DNA of 58,521 nt from Phycisphaeraceae bacterium (GTDB lineage Bacteria > Planctomycetota > Phycisphaerae > Phycisphaerales > UBA1924): NCBI GenBank assembly GCA_021297895.1, contig JAJTHN010000006.1, positions 1 to 58,521 on the forward strand, written 5' to 3'. Below are positions 7,287-44,320 of the stretch, piece by piece. A program made the position numbers and the translations under genes. Below the pieces are notes generated by a model, which made no database searches, was not told where the DNA came from, and saw nothing but the letters and a program-made list of their open reading frames with translations. How positions within the stretch are numbered: position 1 is the stretch's first letter; every line of letters starts with the position of its first letter.

Positions 7287-8114
7287 ATGCCAGCACCCGA
7301 TGCCGCACCCGTTCCCGATGCCCCCCGCCTCTCGCGTCCGCTCGCGGTCCATCTCCTGCCCGCGATGATCGACCCCGCCGCGCTCGCCGGCGGCATCGTC
7401 ATCATGATCGACGCACTGCGTGCCAGCGTCACCATCGCCCACGCCCTTGCCCACGGTTGCCCCGTCGTGCATCCCACCGCCACCGTCGATGAGGCCCGCG
7501 CTCTGGCCGACACGCTCCGAGCCGCGGGCCAGCACCCGCTCCTCGGCGGCGAACGAGCGGGCGTGCTCATCGACGGGTTCGACCTCGATAACTCCCCGTG
7601 GCGATACACCCGCGACGCCATCGCTTCCCGCCCCCTGGTCTTCACGACGACCAACGGCACGGCCGCGCTGCTTCACGCGCGACACGCCGATCTCATTCTC
7701 GTCGGCTCCTTCGTGAACCTCAGCGCTGTCTGCTCCGCGGTCGCGAGCGACCGTCGTCCCGTGCACATCCTCTGCGCGGGCACACGGGGCGAAGTCTCAC
7801 TCGACGACTGCCTCCCCGCGGGCGCCATCGCCGACCAACTCGTGCTTGCCGGCCGAGAACTGGCTACCGACGATTCCGCACGCCTGTGTATCGAGGCCTT
7901 CCGACACGCCCGCCAGCGCGCCGCCGATCCCGACACCGGGATCCTGCAGGCCATGCGCGAATCTCGCGGCGGCCGCAACCTCATCCGCCTGAGCCTCAAC
8001 GATGACATCGTGCAGTGCTCTCGCCGCGACACCCTGAACATCATCCCGGTCTTCAACCCAGCCGACCGCACCATCCGCACGCTGGCGGAACCGGCCACGG
8101 AAATCGCCCCATGA
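7287..8114 (+). CDS. comB: 2-phosphosulfolactate phosphatase family protein (ComB-like)
   Basis: A 275-residue protein of the ComB family (EC 3.1.3.71 in the founding members), which removes phosphate from 2-phosphosulfolactate to give sulfolactate. Family landmarks are MIDALRASVTI near residue 33, the central GGERAGVLIDGFDLDNSP, TTTNGTAAL and the glycine/acid segment CAGTRGEVSLDDCLPAGAI. In methanogens the step belongs to coenzyme M synthesis. In bacteria the family is found without that pathway and its role is often unknown. The stop overlaps the next start as ATGA, so it is translationally coupled to the PLP enzyme that follows. Family confidence is high; the exact substrate is inference. 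Confidence 0.85.
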   Translation: MPAPDAAPVPDAPRLSRPLAVHLLPAMIDPAALAGGIVIMIDALRASVTIAHALAHGCPVVHPTATVDEARALADTLRAAGQHPLLGGERAGVLIDGFDLDNSPWRYTRDAIASRPLVFTTTNGTAALLHARHADLILVGSFVNLSAVCSAVASDRRPVHILCAGTRGEVSLDDCLPAGAIADQLVLAGRELATDDSARLCIEAFRHARQRAADPDTGILQAMRESRGGRNLIRLSLNDDIVQCSRRDTLNIIPVFNPADRTIRTLAEPATEIAP

Positions 8115-9121
8115 ACCACGAGACACGCGTCTACGACTCCATCCTTGAGATGCTCCCCAGTGAAGAGAACCCCTCCCCTCTGGTCCGCATCAACCGCCTC
8201 CTCCCACCCGAACTGGCACGAGCAAACTTCCGCCTCTTCGCCAAACTCGAGTGGCTGAATCCCTTCGGCTCGGTTAAGGATCGCGCCGCGGCGAGCATGA
8301 TCGCCGATCTCGAAGCACGAAACGAGCTTGGCCCGTCACGCCCCGGCCGCGGCATCGTCGAGCCGACCAGCGGCAACACCGGCCTCTCCCTTGCCGCGAT
8401 CTGCGGCGTTCGCGGCTACCCCATGCGGGCGGTCACGCCGAGCAAAGTCCCGGCCGAAAAGCGCATGCTTCTGAAGCTCTTCGGCGCCGACCTCGACGTG
8501 ACGAACGATGCGATGTGCCCCCTCCCCGGCGCAGAAGACGGCACCATCGGGCTGGCACGCACCCATGCTCGCGCATCCTCCGACCGCTACGTCATGCCCA
8601 ATCAGTACGAGAATCAAGCCAACGTCAACGCCCACATTCGCACCACCGGCCCCGAAATCTGGCGACAGACCGACGCCAAGGTCACCCACGTCTTCACGTC
8701 ACTGGGAACCTGCGGCACCGTCACCGGTCTGGCCCGCGTCCTCAAGGCTCGCGCCGCCGAGGTCGGGCGAACCGTCCGCATCATCGCCGTGCAGCCCTCT
8801 CCGGGCCACGATGTCCCCGGCATCCGCAACACGAGCGAACTGGATGTCAGCCGCCTGTACGACCGGACGCTCATCGACGAGATCATCGAAGTACCGTTTG
8901 ACACCGCCTACGACCGCGTGCTCGACCTCTGCCGAGTCGAAGGTCTGATGGCCGGCCCGAGCTCCGGCCTGATTTTCCAGGGTGCTCGCACCGTTCTGGA
9001 ACGCGATGCCAACGCCGGCACGTTGCCCGAGAACGGCGTCGGTGTCATGATTTTCTGCGACAGCATCCTCAAGTACGCGAGCAGCATGCTCAAGCACCAC
9101 CCTGAGCTCGCGGGCGAGTAG
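8111..9121 (+). CDS. Cysteine synthase-like PLP-dependent enzyme
   Basis: A 336-residue fold-type II PLP enzyme of the CysK/CysM group. It shows KLEWLNPFGSVKDRAA with the PLP-binding lysine, EPTSGNTGLSLAA, and NQYENQANVNAHIRTTGPEIW. The PLP phosphate-binding loop usually reads GTGGT; here it is SLGTCGTVTG, so one glycine is replaced by cysteine. PSSGLIFQGA near the C-terminus is also conserved. Likely forms cysteine or a related beta-substituted alanine from an activated serine; with a ComB-like gene in front, a sulfonate such as cysteate is conceivable but unproven. The ATG at 8111 overlaps the comB stop. Confidence 0.85.
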   Translation: MNHETRVYDSILEMLPSEENPSPLVRINRLLPPELARANFRLFAKLEWLNPFGSVKDRAAASMIADLEARNELGPSRPGRGIVEPTSGNTGLSLAAICGVRGYPMRAVTPSKVPAEKRMLLKLFGADLDVTNDAMCPLPGAEDGTIGLARTHARASSDRYVMPNQYENQANVNAHIRTTGPEIWRQTDAKVTHVFTSLGTCGTVTGLARVLKARAAEVGRTVRIIAVQPSPGHDVPGIRNTSELDVSRLYDRTLIDEIIEVPFDTAYDRVLDLCRVEGLMAGPSSGLIFQGARTVLERDANAGTLPENGVGVMIFCDSILKYASSMLKHHPELAGE

Positions 9122-9176: not shown

Positions 9177-9182
9177 TATACT
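9177..9182 (+). promoter_or_regulatory. -10 promoter element for a leaderless transcript
   Basis: TATACT ends five bases before the ATG at 9188, so transcription starting the usual 6-7 bases after the -10 box would begin at or next to the A of the start codon. No good -35 box is visible 17 bases upstream. No Shine-Dalgarno sequence could fit, which also points to leaderless translation of the short ORF. Confidence 0.5.
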
Positions 9183-9187
9183 TCGTC

Positions 9188-9295
9188 ATGCTCACGTTCT
9201 ATACGAGCAATTCGTCAACGGCCGGCCGCTCACCGAACGCTCGTTTGGTGTGGTGCTGTTGCTGCTGTTGCCGCCATGCCTGCTGTTGTCGCTGA
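9188..9295 (+). CDS. Polycysteine leader peptide (35 codons), candidate cysteine-responsive attenuator ORF
   Basis: ATG to TGA encodes 35 residues. After an unremarkable first 22 residues ending RLVW come six consecutive cysteine codons (9254-9271), then Arg-His-Ala, three more cysteine codons (9281-9289), Arg and stop. Nine of the last thirteen codons are Cys. In mycobacteria, leaderless short ORFs with consecutive Cys codons lie ahead of cysA2-type thiosulfate sulfurtransferase operons. There, ribosome stalling at the Cys codons when cysteine is low raises downstream expression. The next gene here is that same type of enzyme, about 250 bases on, and the -10 box is placed for a leaderless start. 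The peptide itself probably has no function. Confidence 0.6.
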   Translation: MLTFYTSNSSTAGRSPNARLVWCCCCCCRHACCCR

Positions 9296-9543
9296 TCAAG
9301 CCACACGGTCAGGCCCACTGCCGCCCCGCGGCGAAGAGAACCAGCTCCAAATCGCCTGATTACTGTCGTATTTCGCGGCCGTTTTACGGCTTGCTTGAGT
9401 CCGCGTGCGTCTCTCGCAGGCACGTCGCGATCCGGGCCCCCCCGCGTGCGAGCCGGTGCCCGCACCCGGGGAACCGTTCCGCGACCGAGTCCCATCAAAC
9501 GTTCGCCCGACTTCCGGGCCCAATTTTGCAAGGAGTTCATGCA
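9296..9543 (+). promoter_or_regulatory. Leader between the polycysteine ORF and the sulfurtransferase gene
   Basis: A 248-base untranslated region. Just before the gene there is a 5-bp hairpin (GCCCG-ACTTC-CGGGC, 9505-9519) followed by CCAATTTT. The Shine-Dalgarno AAGGAG (9530-9535) then sits in the loop of a second small inverted repeat, TTGCA (9526-9530) and TGCAA (9540-9544), whose right arm reaches the start codon. Such structures could hide the ribosome binding site unless upstream ribosomes rearrange the RNA. I could not fold the whole leader, so the switching partners are unknown. Confidence 0.4.
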
Positions 9544-10449
9544 ATGTCTGCACCGTCAACCGTCCCGCACCAGTTCAAGGTCGACATCGACCCCGCTATT
9601 CCCCGCGGCTACGCCCATCCGGAGGCTCTTGTGAGCACAGATTGGGTCCAGCGGAACCTCAACACGCCCGGCGTGCGCATCGTCGAGGTCGATGTCGACC
9701 CGAAGCTCTACGACGCTGGCCACATCCCCGGCGCCGTCGGCTGGAACTGGAACACACAGCTGCAGGACCCGATTCGACGCGACATCCCCACCAAGGAGTC
9801 ATGGGAAAAGCTCCTGAGCGAGTCCGGCATCAGTCCTTCGGACACCATCGTGTTTTACGGTGATGCGAGCAACTGGTTCGCCGCGTATGCCTTCTGGGTC
9901 GCCCGCATCTACGGCCACGCCGACGTCCGCCTCATGAACGGCGGCCGCGTCCGATGGCTCAACGAGGAGTCGCGTCCACTCACACCCGCCCGCCCCACGC
10001 CCACGCCCACCGCCTACAAGGCACCCGGCGTCAACCTCGACCTCCGCGCACGCCTGCTCGATGTCGTGGCGATCGCACAAACCCACGCTTCCAACCTCGT
10101 CGATGTTCGCAGCCCCGATGAGTTCTCCGGGAAGATCATCGCCCCGCCGGGCATGACCGAAACGGCCCAGCGCGCGGGGCACGTCCCTGGCGCCCGCAGC
10201 ATCCCGTGGGCCTCGGCGGTGAACACCGACGGCACCTTCAAGTCTGCCGATGAACTGCGGGAGCTCTACATCAATCAGAAGGGCATCGACCCCGCACGCG
10301 ACACCGTCGCCTACTGCCGCATCGGCGAGCGCTCGAGCCACACCTGGTTCGTGCTCAAGTACCTTCTTGGTCTCAAGAACGTGCGCAACTACGACGGCTC
10401 GTGGACCGAGTACGGCTCGGTCATCGGCGTGCCGATCGAACGCGACTGA
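9544..10449 (+). CDS. Thiosulfate sulfurtransferase (two-domain rhodanese)
   Basis: Transfers sulfane sulfur from thiosulfate to an acceptor such as cyanide or a thiol. The 301-residue protein has two rhodanese domains: an inactive N-terminal one (about 25-150, DAGHIPGAVGWNWN) and a catalytic C-terminal one (about 165-295, VDVRSPDEFSGK then GHVPGARSIPW). The active-site loop is YCRIGERSSHTW, with the cysteine in the CRIGERS form usual for CysA/SseA-type enzymes of actinobacteria and relatives. The ATG at 9544 has AAGGAG eight bases upstream. It is preceded by the polycysteine short ORF, so expression is probably tied to cysteine supply. Its stop directly abuts the stop of the convergent UbiD gene. 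Confidence 0.92.
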   Translation: MSAPSTVPHQFKVDIDPAIPRGYAHPEALVSTDWVQRNLNTPGVRIVEVDVDPKLYDAGHIPGAVGWNWNTQLQDPIRRDIPTKESWEKLLSESGISPSDTIVFYGDASNWFAAYAFWVARIYGHADVRLMNGGRVRWLNEESRPLTPARPTPTPTAYKAPGVNLDLRARLLDVVAIAQTHASNLVDVRSPDEFSGKIIAPPGMTETAQRAGHVPGARSIPWASAVNTDGTFKSADELRELYINQKGIDPARDTVAYCRIGERSSHTWFVLKYLLGLKNVRNYDGSWTEYGSVIGVPIERD

Positions 10450-40101: not shown

Positions 40102-41549
40102 TGCGCACCGCCGATCGGCAGCATCGGACGCGCAGGGGCCGTGACGCGGCCAGCGGACCGACGCTCGCCCGCGGCGTCGCGAAGCCAGGAGATCATGCGG
40201 TCGGTGTAGCCGGGCAGAAAGATGAACAGCCACTCGTGCCCGCCGGCGAAGGTCCAACGCTCCGGCCGCCCGGCCAGTTCCCACAGCTCATCGCCAAGAT
40301 CCGCCGGCACGGCCGTGTCACTCCTCGCGTGGATCATGAGCGTTGGCAACGACCGGAGCACCGCGGCGGTGCGGACCGGATCCAACGGTGATGTGGACCG
40401 ATAGAGCGCGATGGCCTCCCGACGCTGCACCTCGCTCGGCGCGGCGCCCAGCCACACGAAGCGGAGAGCATCGACCCAGCCCGCGTAACTGCTTCGGAGC
40501 GCGATCGACATGAAGTCCACGCCCCCGGCGATGAGAATCGCCGCATCGAAGGCATCGGGCTGGCGAGCGACGACAGTCGGGAGCACCATCGCCCCCGCGC
40601 TCAGCCCCATGACCACGCGCGGACGATCGGCCAGCGCAGGACGCTGCGACATGACGTATACCAGCGCCGCCTCGACCGCGTACGCGCATTCCACAGCGCG
40701 ATCGCCAAGCACGGCGGAGACCGCTGCGATTCCTTGGGCGGGATCGGTCGGGTCGATTCGGAACTCGCGGCGTTCGCTGAATCGCGACGGCTGCGCGAGC
40801 ATCCGCAGCACGCACCAGCCCTCGGCCCGCAGAGATCCGGCGATAGCGTCGATCGTTGGTTCAGGCGTACCGAACAGCCCGGGCAGCAGGACAATCAGCC
40901 CGCGTGCCGGTGTGCCGACCTCGGCGTCGGCATACGAGAACCATGTGCGTTGAAGGTCAACGAGCACACCACCCGGAGTGACATCGCCACTCGGAGTCGA
41001 GACTGAAGGCTGGCGGCCTCGCTCCGTGCCACTGATGAACTTGAAGAACAGTGAAGCGCCGCGAGCATCTCCCGGCTTGATGCCGCGATTGATGCTCGGC
41101 GAAACGAACACAAACGCCCCAGGGCCTTCGCCCTCAAAGCGGGCCAGACCGTCGCTGAACCACGGCGCACGCCGCCGAGCGAGCGTATTGGCATCCTCGC
41201 GCTGCTCTTCAGTGAGAAGCATGCGATCCGAGTCGGTCTTCCGAAACATCCGCGGCGGTCCTTCCAACGCGATGATCGTGCCCATGAGCCGACGCGAAAG
41301 GCCACCCGGCACAGTCCGCGGCAGGCCCGACCAGACGCGATAGCGAGCGCGCCATTCGCCCGGACCGACCAGCGGGTCCAGAGGCATGACAGGTGATGGC
41401 GCGGGGCCCTCGGCGAGTCTCGCGGGCTCGTAACTCATGCAGCCACCGACCAGCATGAGCGATGAGCTCAGCGCGGCAGCCAACAAAGCGCGGCGCCCGA
41501 AAACGCCAGCGGCCATTCCGACGCCGCGAATCGCCGAGGCTGCGTTCAC
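40098..41549 (-). CDS. Alpha/beta-hydrolase lipoprotein
   Basis: A 483-residue protein. The N-terminal signal ends in a lipobox (LMLVGGCMS), indicating membrane anchoring outside the cytoplasm. The hydrolase domain (about 215-460) begins LIVLLPGLFGTPEPTID, has the nucleophile elbow MGLSAGAMV, the acid in IHARSDTAVP and the histidine in GGHEWLF, so the Ser-Asp-His triad is complete. The first 200 residues are of unknown fold. Likely an esterase or peptidase acting at the envelope. Its start overlaps the gspD stop as ATGA, an unusual linkage of a hydrolase to a secretin. Confidence 0.75.
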   Translation of the reverse strand: MNAASAIRGVGMAAGVFGRRALLAAALSSSLMLVGGCMSYEPARLAEGPAPSPVMPLDPLVGPGEWRARYRVWSGLPRTVPGGLSRRLMGTIIALEGPPRMFRKTDSDRMLLTEEQREDANTLARRRAPWFSDGLARFEGEGPGAFVFVSPSINRGIKPGDARGASLFFKFISGTERGRQPSVSTPSGDVTPGGVLVDLQRTWFSYADAEVGTPARGLIVLLPGLFGTPEPTIDAIAGSLRAEGWCVLRMLAQPSRFSERREFRIDPTDPAQGIAAVSAVLGDRAVECAYAVEAALVYVMSQRPALADRPRVVMGLSAGAMVLPTVVARQPDAFDAAILIAGGVDFMSIALRSSYAGWVDALRFVWLGAAPSEVQRREAIALYRSTSPLDPVRTAAVLRSLPTLMIHARSDTAVPADLGDELWELAGRPERWTFAGGHEWLFIFLPGYTDRMISWLRDAAGERRSAGRVTAPARPMLPIGGAQ

Positions 41550-44320
41550 CGCTCCGGCTCACCACGATCCGGAACAGCGGATGGCTCACCCGCGGGCGCC
41601 GCACCGGACTTGTCCTGGAGGTGATCGCGAAGATCGCCCAGCCGCTTGCGGAGCGGATCGTTGAGACGATCGGACTCCTCGCGGTTGTTGACGACGACCG
41701 GCGTGATGAAGGCGACGAGCTCGGTGTTGGTCTTGCTGCGCTCGGTGCTGGTAAATGGCAGGCCGAGGATCGGGATGTCGCCAAGGAGCGGGATCTTCCG
41801 CTTGGTCTCGGTGTCTTCCGTGCGCATGATGCCCGAGATGACGACGGTTTGACCATCGCCGACGATGAGTTGCGTCGTGGTTTCCCGGCGATCGACGATG
41901 GCCCCGCCGAAGAGCGTCTGACCCGCGACTGTGTTCGAGAGCTGAAGGTTGACGCGCAGGTCAACATCGCGCTCCGGGGTGATCCGCGGGCGGACGCGGA
42001 GCTGGATACCGACGGCGCGATAGTCGAAGGACTGAACCAGCCCCGTAGTGCCCGTGGCGGTCTGGGTGTCGGTGATGAACGGGATGTCCTGCCCGTCGAA
42101 GAAGATGGCTTCCTGGTTGTCCGACGTGAAGATCCTCGGCTCGGAAAGGATGCGGACCTGCGTGTTCTGGGCCAGTGCCTGGAGTAGCACATTGACATTC
42201 ACGCCGACATTCAGCACGCTGGTGTCAAAGAGCGAGTTGGCCAGTTCGTTGTTGGTGCCGGTGAAGATCGGGCCGTTGTTCGACGACCCGATGCCGATCG
42301 CGTTGTCGGAGTTGGTGGGCGTGATGGCGCTGTTGCTGAAGCGGACGCCAAGTGCCGTCGCGTCTTCACCGGTGAGCTCGACGATGACCGCGGCGATGAG
42401 CACCTGCCGACCGGGCTTGTCGAGGCGTTCGATGATCTCGACGATCGAACGCTTGTACTCGAGCGGCGCGAGCACCATGACCGCGTTCTGCCGCGAGACG
42501 GGGACGATTCGTGCCTTGGAAATCAGGTTCGAGGATCCGGCACTGTCCGTCGGCGGACGGGCACGCTGCCACCAGAACTGGAGCGCATCGCCCGTCGTGG
42601 TCGTGTTCTGTTGGGCGTTCTCGCCTGTCGTCGTCGTGGCCGTGTCACTGGCAAACGGCGATGCGCCCGCGGCCGATGAAGCGGACAGCCCGGTTGTTGC
42701 GCGACGGACGCTGGCGAGCGTGCCCTCCTGTGCCAGCAGCGCGTTGAGCTGCTCGGCAAGGTCGTCCGCATTGGCGTGCTTGAGTTCAACGACCTCCGGC
42801 AGGCCCGCGGTCGTCGGCTGGTCAAGATCCTCGATGATCTTGTCGATCACGCTCATGTTGTCCGGACTCCGCGCGACGACGACCAGGCGGCCGGCCTCGG
42901 GAATAGCCTGGAACGAAAACTGCCCGGCGAGTCGGCCCACGCCCTGCTGCAGCGCGGTCGTGCGCTGGCCCTGCTGCGTGCCGACCGTTGTCTGCGTTCC
43001 CTGACCAAAGAGACCCTCGAGCGTTTCCTTCATCTTGACGGGGTCGGTGTTCCTGAGCTCGTAGACGCGGGGGATCACGGCTTCTTCGGGCAGCGGGCGG
43101 TCCCACTGCTCCAAAATCTGCTTGCGGACCTGATCGATGATCTGCTGCTCTCCCAGCACCGTGACGGAGTTCTGCTGCGTGTTGCTCGTCACGCGGAGGT
43201 TCACGCTCGTCGCGGCGTTCTGCCCGCCTTGTTGCTGCTGCTGCTGTTGCTGCTGTTGACGACCGCCGCCCTGCACGCCGAACTGACGCTGGGCCTGCTG
43301 GAGCGCGGCCTGTGCCGCGGTGTTGCCCGTCCGGCGGGCGCCCTGCGCGTTGGCGTCGGCGAACAGGTCGCGGATGTTCTGCGCGACAAGCTCCGCATCG
43401 GCGAAGCGGAGATGGAACGTCTCGGTCGCCAGCGCCGCCGCGGCGGGCTTGTCGAGCGCGACAATGACCTTCTCCAGCCGCTGAAGAAGAGCAACTGGTC
43501 CGGTGATGAGGATCTGGTTGCTGTCGGGATCGACGCTCATGCGCGCAAAGTCAGGAATCGACGGGCGGAGAACCTCGGCAACGTTCGCCGCCGTCGCTGA
43601 CTTGAGCGAGAAGACCTTCTGCAGCACCGAGCCGAGATCCGTGCGATCCGCGACGGGCTTCTCAGGGCCGAGCACCGGGATCGACTGACGGTCAACATCG
43701 GCCTGATCGCGCAGCAGGATGAGGTCCGGGTTCTCAACCACCGCCACGCCATTCTGCTGAAGCGCAAGGAACACCAGGTCCAGCGCCTGCTGCCGCGGGA
43801 TCGCCTTGTCGTTGAGCAGCGTGATGCGGCGGCTGAGCACGTCCTGCTGTGGCAGCACGACCTTTCCGGTGGATTCAACGATGAACGGAATGAGCTGCTC
43901 GACACTCACGCCGCGGAACGAGAGCTTGGTGGGCTCGTCCGGCGGCACGCGACGGCCGAGCGAGTCGATACCCATCGGCGTCGCGATTGGTGGCGTTGCG
44001 GGCGCAGTGGCCGAGCCGTTCTGCGTGGACGCTTGGGGGTCTTGAGCGACGGCGGGCTGCTCGGCTTGGGGCTGAGCCGGGGCCTGGCTCGCCTGTGTTT
44101 CGGGGGCTGCGGAGCCCGGCGCATCGGGCGGTGTTTGCGCAGCGGGTGTCGTCGGCTGCGTGCCCTGCTGCATCGCGGCGTTGGCCGCGAGCGCAACGAC
44201 AACGAGCGAGCCGGCGACGGCCACGAGCGCACGCGCTCGACCCGAGATGATCGAGAGCTGCTTTGCGGCGGGGGTATGGGCCGTTGTCTCGGCCGCGCTG
44301 CGGTTGGGTATCGTCTTCAA
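41546..44320 (-). CDS. gspD: Type II secretion outer-membrane secretin GspD
   Basis: The 924-residue outer-membrane channel of the T2SS. After an N-terminal membrane segment (VAVAGSLVVVALAANAAM) and a Pro/Gln/Ala-rich linker come N0 (LSFRGVSVEQLIPFIVEST) and three N1-N3 repeats (e.g. AELVAQNIRDLFADAN and VVELKHANADDLAEQLNALL). A run of ten glutamines lies inside N2 (about 43230-43260). The secretin core ends with KIPLLGDIPILGLPF and LVAFITPVVV. The frame opens with a TTG (44320) because no ATG is suitably placed; the true start is less certain. It lies in the T2SS operon. Confidence 0.92.
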   Translation of the reverse strand: MKTIPNRSAAETTAHTPAAKQLSIISGRARALVAVAGSLVVVALAANAAMQQGTQPTTPAAQTPPDAPGSAAPETQASQAPAQPQAEQPAVAQDPQASTQNGSATAPATPPIATPMGIDSLGRRVPPDEPTKLSFRGVSVEQLIPFIVESTGKVVLPQQDVLSRRITLLNDKAIPRQQALDLVFLALQQNGVAVVENPDLILLRDQADVDRQSIPVLGPEKPVADRTDLGSVLQKVFSLKSATAANVAEVLRPSIPDFARMSVDPDSNQILITGPVALLQRLEKVIVALDKPAAAALATETFHLRFADAELVAQNIRDLFADANAQGARRTGNTAAQAALQQAQRQFGVQGGGRQQQQQQQQQQGGQNAATSVNLRVTSNTQQNSVTVLGEQQIIDQVRKQILEQWDRPLPEEAVIPRVYELRNTDPVKMKETLEGLFGQGTQTTVGTQQGQRTTALQQGVGRLAGQFSFQAIPEAGRLVVVARSPDNMSVIDKIIEDLDQPTTAGLPEVVELKHANADDLAEQLNALLAQEGTLASVRRATTGLSASSAAGASPFASDTATTTTGENAQQNTTTTGDALQFWWQRARPPTDSAGSSNLISKARIVPVSRQNAVMVLAPLEYKRSIVEIIERLDKPGRQVLIAAVIVELTGEDATALGVRFSNSAITPTNSDNAIGIGSSNNGPIFTGTNNELANSLFDTSVLNVGVNVNVLLQALAQNTQVRILSEPRIFTSDNQEAIFFDGQDIPFITDTQTATGTTGLVQSFDYRAVGIQLRVRPRITPERDVDLRVNLQLSNTVAGQTLFGGAIVDRRETTTQLIVGDGQTVVISGIMRTEDTETKRKIPLLGDIPILGLPFTSTERSKTNTELVAFITPVVVNNREESDRLNDPLRKRLGDLRDHLQDKSGAAPAGEPSAVPDRGEPER

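Follow-up and report, generated by a model that had tools for sequence, protein, structure and literature searches.

The closest described counterparts of the locus analysed here are the polycysteine leaderless sORFs of mycobacteria, which are reportedly the subject of Canestrari et al. 2020. The content of that work on the sORFs is taken here as relayed in the available parts of two citing papers (PMC9094748, PMC9031893), and these sORFs were first seen in Shell et al. 2015 (PMC4633059). Cys leader peptides were predicted for Mycobacterium, for Propionibacterium acnes and for cbs of Bifidobacterium longum in Seliverstov et al. 2005 (PMC1262725), whose available portion suggests Rho-dependent termination for Actinobacteria, a prediction that its authors call rather weak. 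In Rhodobacterales, the uORFC-8-2 motif lies before cysS, and the Cys codons of its uORF are read, in the accessible part of PMC8632094, as ribosome-mediated attenuation, again by prediction. Among the matches listed in our literature search, with subscription journals and preprints outside its scope, we recognised no report that describes Cys leader ORFs from either Planctomycetota or Acidobacteriota. As far as searched, Cys-codon attenuation in print thus comprises the Actinobacteria and one alphaproteobacterial gene, the latter as a prediction.

We describe a planctomycete ORF at 9188-9295 of the window, by which we mean the whole stretch of DNA analysed (58,521 nucleotides). Like the mycobacterial sORFs, as the available sources present them, it has a start of predicted leaderless type, Cys codons near its stop and a CysA2-type sulfurtransferase gene behind it; unlike them, the planctomycete leader belongs to another phylum, is linked to cysK, mostly lies ahead of cysK and has a cysteine response that is predicted here. 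With the leaders in the accessible part of PMC1262725, the planctomycete leaders share Cys codon runs near the stop, the lack of a conserved terminator and the proposal of Rho, whereas those leaders are from Actinobacteria only and sit on cys operons and cbs. The uORFC-8-2 motif, in the portion of PMC8632094 at hand, has two tandem Cys codons, a structured RNA with an intrinsic terminator and cysS as its target; the planctomycete leader is without such a terminator, while the U-run at the end of the motif resembles that of the Acidobacteria version described below. We consider it likely that ORF 9188-9295 acts in cis as a leader ORF, gauging the supply of cysteinyl-tRNA and allowing rhodanese to be expressed once cysteine runs short. 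The data would extend Cys-codon attenuation to Planctomycetota and to a putative regulon in Acidobacteriota.

The polycysteine ORF and its surroundings

A sequence-only reading of the window had reported an ORF of 35 codons with six and then three consecutive Cys codons before its stop, and its coordinates (9188-9295, forward strand) were confirmed. The ORF opens with an ATG at 9188, closes with a stop codon at 9293-9295 and reads MLTFYTSNSSTAGRSPNARLVWCCCCCCRHACCCR. Both Cys runs fall inside its final 14 codons: Cys6 (9254-9271, +) is the proposed stall site, and Cys3 (9281-9289, +) is followed by one Arg codon and the stop. The TATACT described in the same reading, a -10-like hexamer, is likewise present, at 9177-9182 on the forward strand, five nucleotides (spacer TCGTC) ahead of the ATG. 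This is approximately the spacing expected if the A of the ATG were the first transcribed base, and because of it we regard the sORF as probably leaderless. A promoter scan around the sORF gave no -35/-10 pair and no -35.

The sORF is flanked by a cysteine synthase-like PLP gene of the cysK/cysM type on the 5′ side (8117-9121, +), which is itself preceded by a 2-phosphosulfolactate phosphatase-like gene (7287-8114, +), and by a CysA2-type rhodanese (thiosulfate sulfurtransferase) gene on the 3′ side (9544-10449, +). Between the sORF stop and the rhodanese ATG at 9544 lies a C-rich stretch of 248 nt (9296-9543, +), the proposed seat of the downstream switch; the rhodanese gene claimed about 250 bases downstream, with its CRIGERS active-site string, is therefore where it was said to be. 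Its Shine-Dalgarno (SD) sequence, AAGGAG, occupies 9530-9535 (+). The product matches Pfam PF00581 and, among PDB entries, 3aax (third match, E 2.1e-94), which we take to be CysA2/CysA3, and 3hzu (fifth match, E 5.3e-85). With this sulfurtransferase, the proposed regulated gene, directly 3′ of the sORF, the Pfam and PDB matches bear out a sulfur-assimilation context, and as judged by sequence similarity the enzyme belongs with the mycobacterial-type thiosulfate sulfurtransferases. CysE-like matches in the source genome were all below the cut-off. In the same genome, 97% complete, neither the sulfite reductase family (PF01077) nor the PAPS reductase family (PF01507) was matched, so that cysteine synthase and rhodanese are perhaps central to its cysteine supply and may be the chief way in which it obtains cysteine sulfur.

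TGY runs by themselves are commonplace in the source genome, where 46 overlapping TGYx4 matches, against 32 for the reversed control pattern, merge to 34 distinct runs. As a detector of polycysteine ORFs, TGY patterns alone were rejected, with TGYx5 present in 192 of 201 genomes and the reversed control often equally frequent. A chance control is provided by the window itself, in which an ORF at 43137-43259 ends in nine Cys codons (run 43230-43256) and is antisense to the poly-Gln of a secretin gene (41546-44320, minus strand). The run at 9254 is the only one of the 34 TGY4+ runs that sits in a short ORF (70 codons or fewer) with a -10-like hexamer just before the start (spacing 3-9 nt for 32 runs and 4-8 nt for the two window runs). 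When both strands of the full 58,521 bases were scanned for ORFs of leaderless type (8-50 codons, ATG or GTG start) with at least three Cys, ORF 9188-9295 alone was returned. It is this combination of Cys run, short ORF and -10-like hexamer that is out of the ordinary, and the feature recurs before the same genes in relatives.

Cys-tailed ORFs in relatives from the Phycisphaerales

A search of 400 genomes of the order with a cut-off of E <= 1e-60 detected rhodanese homologues in 48. Upstream regions were taken for 49 of the 51 rhodanese places, two short ones (G281, G171) being left out and one (L207) ending at a contig end. The rhodanese gene is linked to cysK in 26 of these 49 loci, the window included, and has no cysK in the stretch in 23. 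We applied a strict filter that demands a -10 with 4/6 matches including A2 and T6, a distance of 4-8 nt to an ATG or GTG, and at least two Cys in the last 12 codons. The regions searched were the 500 nt before cysK in 23 loci and the 450 nt before rhodanese in three (L188, L189 and the window), for which the rhodanese side was used because the first examples were already known. With filter and regions fixed only after first examples had been seen, a leader was obtained in 8 of the 26 cysK-linked loci (L188, L193, L195, L208, L209, L212, L214 and the window, L236), as against 0 of 26 for the antisense strand and a mean of 0.30 (maximum 3, 300 runs) for Markov-1 sequences. The leaderless-like -10 spacing of the window is thus found in seven other loci, and TATACT itself stands 6 nt before the sORF start in L193 and L208.

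Background rates were low for the same filter, with 3 ORFs per 255,246 strand-bases of other sulfur-gene loci compared with 8 per about 12.9 kb of leaders. Over all 49 loci (130,045 bases on each strand) there were 12 sense and 2 antisense ORFs; the sense ORFs are the eight leaders, three short GATGAT ORFs located 135-150 nt before rhodanese (L193, L195, L197), and one in L226. Cys accounts for 26.1% of the last-12 residues in 13 leaderless-type ORFs and for 2.9% in 3 antisense ones. When the -10 requirement was removed, no more than 1 of 40 shuffles equalled the best Cys tail in 11 of 26 leaders, and this held for 1 of 26 antisense regions; the antisense of L214 also scores in this test. Shuffles match the accepted leaders of L188, L190-L193, L195 and L204 in 7-38% of cases, which makes these unexceptional when taken singly.

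Looser inspection, which admits a weaker -10 or none, added ten further Cys-tailed ORFs (L189, L190, L191, L192, L194, L201, L203, L204, L206 and L215; those of L201, L203, L204 and L206 are without a clear leaderless -10) and brought the total to 18 of the 26 cysK-linked loci. Examples from relatives are MARVAQQPRSGKRDSHAGLCCTQKVACCCCCC, MAAFRSISCCPCCRPGCGRTCCC and MKNGRHTSRVLSPLTRTRCCGRCCCR, each read up to its stop codon. No convincing leader was seen in the other eight cysK-linked loci (L196-L199, L202, L205, L210, L218), weak candidates in L197-L199 being left out of the counts. The leader lies before cysK in 15 of the 18 loci and between cysK and rhodanese in the window, L188 and L189. 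The last two represent the nearest relatives, which keep the order cysK-sORF-rhodanese and have Cys codons close to the sORF end. One (L018/L188) has a GTG start, 2 Cys and the tail DALCTC before the stop; the other (L003/L189) has 5 Cys, two of them adjacent (MKRCRFHLGCWGCQGCCSGH up to the stop), and a -10, TACCTT, that scores 3/6. The sequence-only reading had proposed comparing the intergenic regions of related genomes for a conserved Cys run and had named its loss, in close relatives with the same gene order, as evidence against a leader. The comparison yielded recurrence under both the strict and the looser count; in the two nearest relatives Cys codons are kept but the unbroken run of the window is not, a mixed outcome that we do not regard as refuting.

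Beyond the cysK-linked set, the 23 loci without cysK in the stretch yielded one ORF, 0.9 kb away. An additional cysK-rhodanese locus (L237, genome G197), whose rhodanese match narrowly misses the homology cut-off, carries a Cys5 leader before cysK that ends in ACERCCCCCACGPCAGTLNCR ahead of the stop. At the cysK of G010 (L238), which lies far from rhodanese, no Cys leader was found. With TAGCAT 6 nt ahead of the ATG of this cysK, the gene may itself be leaderless. Two shared nucleotide blocks were also observed: GATGCGCTGTGTACG over the Cys codons is common to L188, L193, L201 and L204 and may reflect common descent or RNA constraint, and CGGACTTCTGTT is common to L190, L191 and L192, about 19-20 nt past the sORF stop and before cysK.

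Terminator-type leaders in Acidobacteria

Acidobacterial genes of the same rhodanese family are preceded by a differently built leader. Many rows have a -10-like hexamer 6-7 nt before the ATG, the Cys cluster of the ORF is followed by about ten more codons that hold the antiterminator arm TTCTGGCG, and after these come CCCACCGCCAG...CTGGCAGGTGGG with a T-run, the SD and the gene. Twenty loci were aligned after candidates had been seen, and the removal of L054, L063 and L097 left 17-row alignments (A1/A2). These 17 loci (L043, L046, L048, L049, L051, L055, L056, L058-L060, L062, L067-L069, L077, L079 and L093) have the attenuator no more than about 250 nt before rhodanese; L093 was retained despite a reading frame that is broken before the Cys codons. 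Across the 17 loci, pairing of the antiterminator helix is kept in 95.6% of cells, and 4 rows show a double change from U-A to C-G; the entire antiterminator structure has 87.3% of cells paired as compared with 48.5% or less when slid. Of 500 shuffles, 4 attained the covariation score of this structure, but the count of pairs with a two-sided change is unexceptional (111 of 500 shuffles). The terminator is paired in 92.5% of cells and has no two-sided change, so that conservation rather than covariation supports it; all 17 loci carry an intrinsic terminator by the criterion used. In the modelled structures the antiterminator and the terminator share an arm and are mutually exclusive, which is the arrangement of a textbook attenuator. 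Rfam scanning of 8 loci at the gathering score returned only three tRNAs, all outside leaders, and Rfam gave no match over the leader in L048, L058, L059 and L062, the four scanned of the 17.

A covariance model of the attenuator produced 22 matches in 10 of 12 acidobacterial genomes; 7 of the 12 supplied model rows and so match by construction, and of the other five, three matched. The 15 matches that were read include rhodanese (1), CysD or CysD-like (2), sulfite/nitrite reductase (5), CysG (1), aspartokinase (2) and acetolactate synthase (2), besides two left unassigned, with the gene families of L246, L254 and L256 assigned by eye. All nine sulfur-gene matches carry Cys-rich leaders, those with terminators before CysD, sulfite/nitrite reductase and CysG genes being L247-L250, L252, L255, L258 and L259. 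Similar terminators occur in the aspartokinase and acetolactate synthase leaders (L253, L254 and L256, L260), of which the former is rich in Thr and Ile (ITMATSMSITSTKTKSTI) and the latter in Val (IVVVGLVC). This match of codon to pathway is the strongest reason to think that ORFs of this kind gauge charged tRNA, and we read the Cys-rich leaders on rhodanese, CysD, sulfite/nitrite reductase and CysG as a putative cysteine regulon in Acidobacteria.

A comparable wider regulon was not found on the sulfate-reduction genes of the Phycisphaerales. In 37 loci with PF01077 or PF01507 (127,623 bp, some overlapping) there were only 2 leaderless-type ORFs with at least three Cys, and the tail filter gave 3 ORFs (L279, L297, L292). 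Those of L279 and L297 have Cys near the end, but the former is antisense to its gene and the latter lies 3′ of the domain match.

Proposed switch, rival explanations and origin

The suggestion of a cysteine-responsive leader ORF in a planctomycete draws support from the recurrence in relatives and from the codon-to-pathway match in Acidobacteria. Transcription would start at or next to the sORF ATG, and the sORF would be translated leaderlessly. When cysteine is ample, the ribosome would pass the nine Cys codons, terminate and leave, and rhodanese output from the sORF promoter would be low. When Cys-tRNA is short, the ribosome would stall at the Cys codons beside the stop and let transcription of rhodanese (less likely, its translation) go on. 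The Cys codons of the window lie at the extreme end of the ORF, unlike those of the Acidobacteria leaders, and between leader ORF and gene we did not find the terminator hairpin and U-run of a classical attenuator: a terminator pattern scan of the window leader returned 0 terminator-like sites. A GCCCG-CGGGC hairpin before AATTTT (T4 run 9524-9527) was rejected as an intrinsic terminator for its weakness (-9.3 kcal/mol over the preceding 40 nt). Among other leaders of the order, T-runs occur in 4 of 17, none with a stronger hairpin, and the window leader folds no better than shuffles (z -0.82). Since neither a convincing intrinsic terminator nor an SD release was found, Rho-dependent termination is our default proposal, and we tentatively favour, as the most likely downstream step, a stalled ribosome that would shield the C-rich leader from it. 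The corresponding step of the Acidobacteria leaders is seen in their antiterminator/terminator pair. Rho is encoded in the genome (629 bits, above the cut-off). Ranked against local windows, the best 78-nt C/G bubble is at or above the 94th percentile in 12 of 18 leaders and at the 78th in the window, a result that is given little weight because taking the maximum over a leader biases the percentile upward.

The same cysteine sensing could instead work through translation, if the ribosome altered access to the rhodanese SD or if sORF translation were coupled to the rhodanese start. Besides the lack of a convincing intrinsic terminator, this would fit an inverted repeat, TTGCA-AGGAGTTCA-TGCAA (9526-9544), that holds the SD in its loop and had been put forward as a target of control. 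The repeat is, however, absent from the minimum-free-energy fold and from both nearest relatives, and SD access hardly depends on the sORF: the probability that the ribosome-binding site is unpaired is 0.45 when the sORF is free to pair and 0.47 when it is masked, on which ground SD sequestration was rejected. The repeat thus finds no support as a control target, and with 248 nt also separating the sORF stop from the rhodanese start, a translational switch appears rather unlikely.

Two further explanations dispense with Cys-tRNA shortage. Nine clustered cysteines could bind metal, and among the alternatives given for the mycobacterial sORFs in Shell et al. 2015 (PMC4633059) are cysteine homeostasis or redox status, so that arrest might act through a thiol- or metal-binding nascent peptide that senses copper, zinc or redox state. 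We hold this to be very unlikely: with the Cys codons coming last in the ORF, the cysteines would not yet have left the exit tunnel, relatives conserve Cys codons and mostly not the peptide sequence, the codons in the Acidobacteria leaders of two other pathways are those that suit the pathway concerned, and the gene neighbourhood is one of sulfur assimilation. The sORF could also be a by-product of an untranslated spacer, arising either by slippage as a (TGY)n tract or opposite a CAR/CAA repeat, as the frequency of TGY runs in the genome and the nine-Cys ORF opposite the secretin poly-Gln might suggest. Such an origin is highly improbable given that the leaderless set-up accompanies a single run of the 34, that it recurs before cysK or rhodanese in relatives with differing codon patterns, and that the opposite-strand ORF at 9199-9540 has no Pfam match.

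For the Cys-tRNA-gauging leader that we prefer, a rhodanese tree was used to compare the Planctomycetota and Acidobacteriota; it contains no Mycobacteria, and L064 and L091 were dropped for in-frame stops in the stretch. The window groups with L018, L003, L027, L033, L034, L035, L038, L040 and L041 (support 0.95), and 8 of the 10 members of this clade have a leader (L003, L027 and L040 by looser readings), none having been found in L035 and L041. The Acidobacteria leaders form a separate clade (support 0.94) of 18 marked and two unmarked members, and the two clades are divided by lineages in which no leader was found. The separate rhodanese clades and the different anatomy favour independent origins of the Planctomycetota and Acidobacteriota leaders and suggest that the same sulfurtransferase family has repeatedly been brought under Cys-leader control. 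On balance we lean towards the view that Cys-tRNA-sensing leader ORFs had repeated origins and are a main control on the assimilation of sulfur, in a terminator-less form on cysK and rhodanese in Phycisphaerales and in a classical terminator form in Acidobacteria, where a cysteine regulon of a few genes (rhodanese, CysD, sulfite/nitrite reductase, CysG) would be part of a wider attenuator set that also serves the Thr/Ile and branched-chain pathways. Counting Cys codons in short leaderless-type ORFs would then be a simple predictor of cysteine-controlled genes in uncultured lineages.

In 45 rhodanese loci scanned from other phyla, Cys-rich candidates were seen in L027, L066, L089 and L096, that of L089 not being convincing; the seven Verrucomicrobia/Opitutales loci among the 45 had no such candidate. 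The contig of L027 is titled Myxococcaceae, and its rhodanese falls inside the Planctomycetota clade with a Cys4 leader before cysK, a placement that probably reflects transfer or mis-binning.
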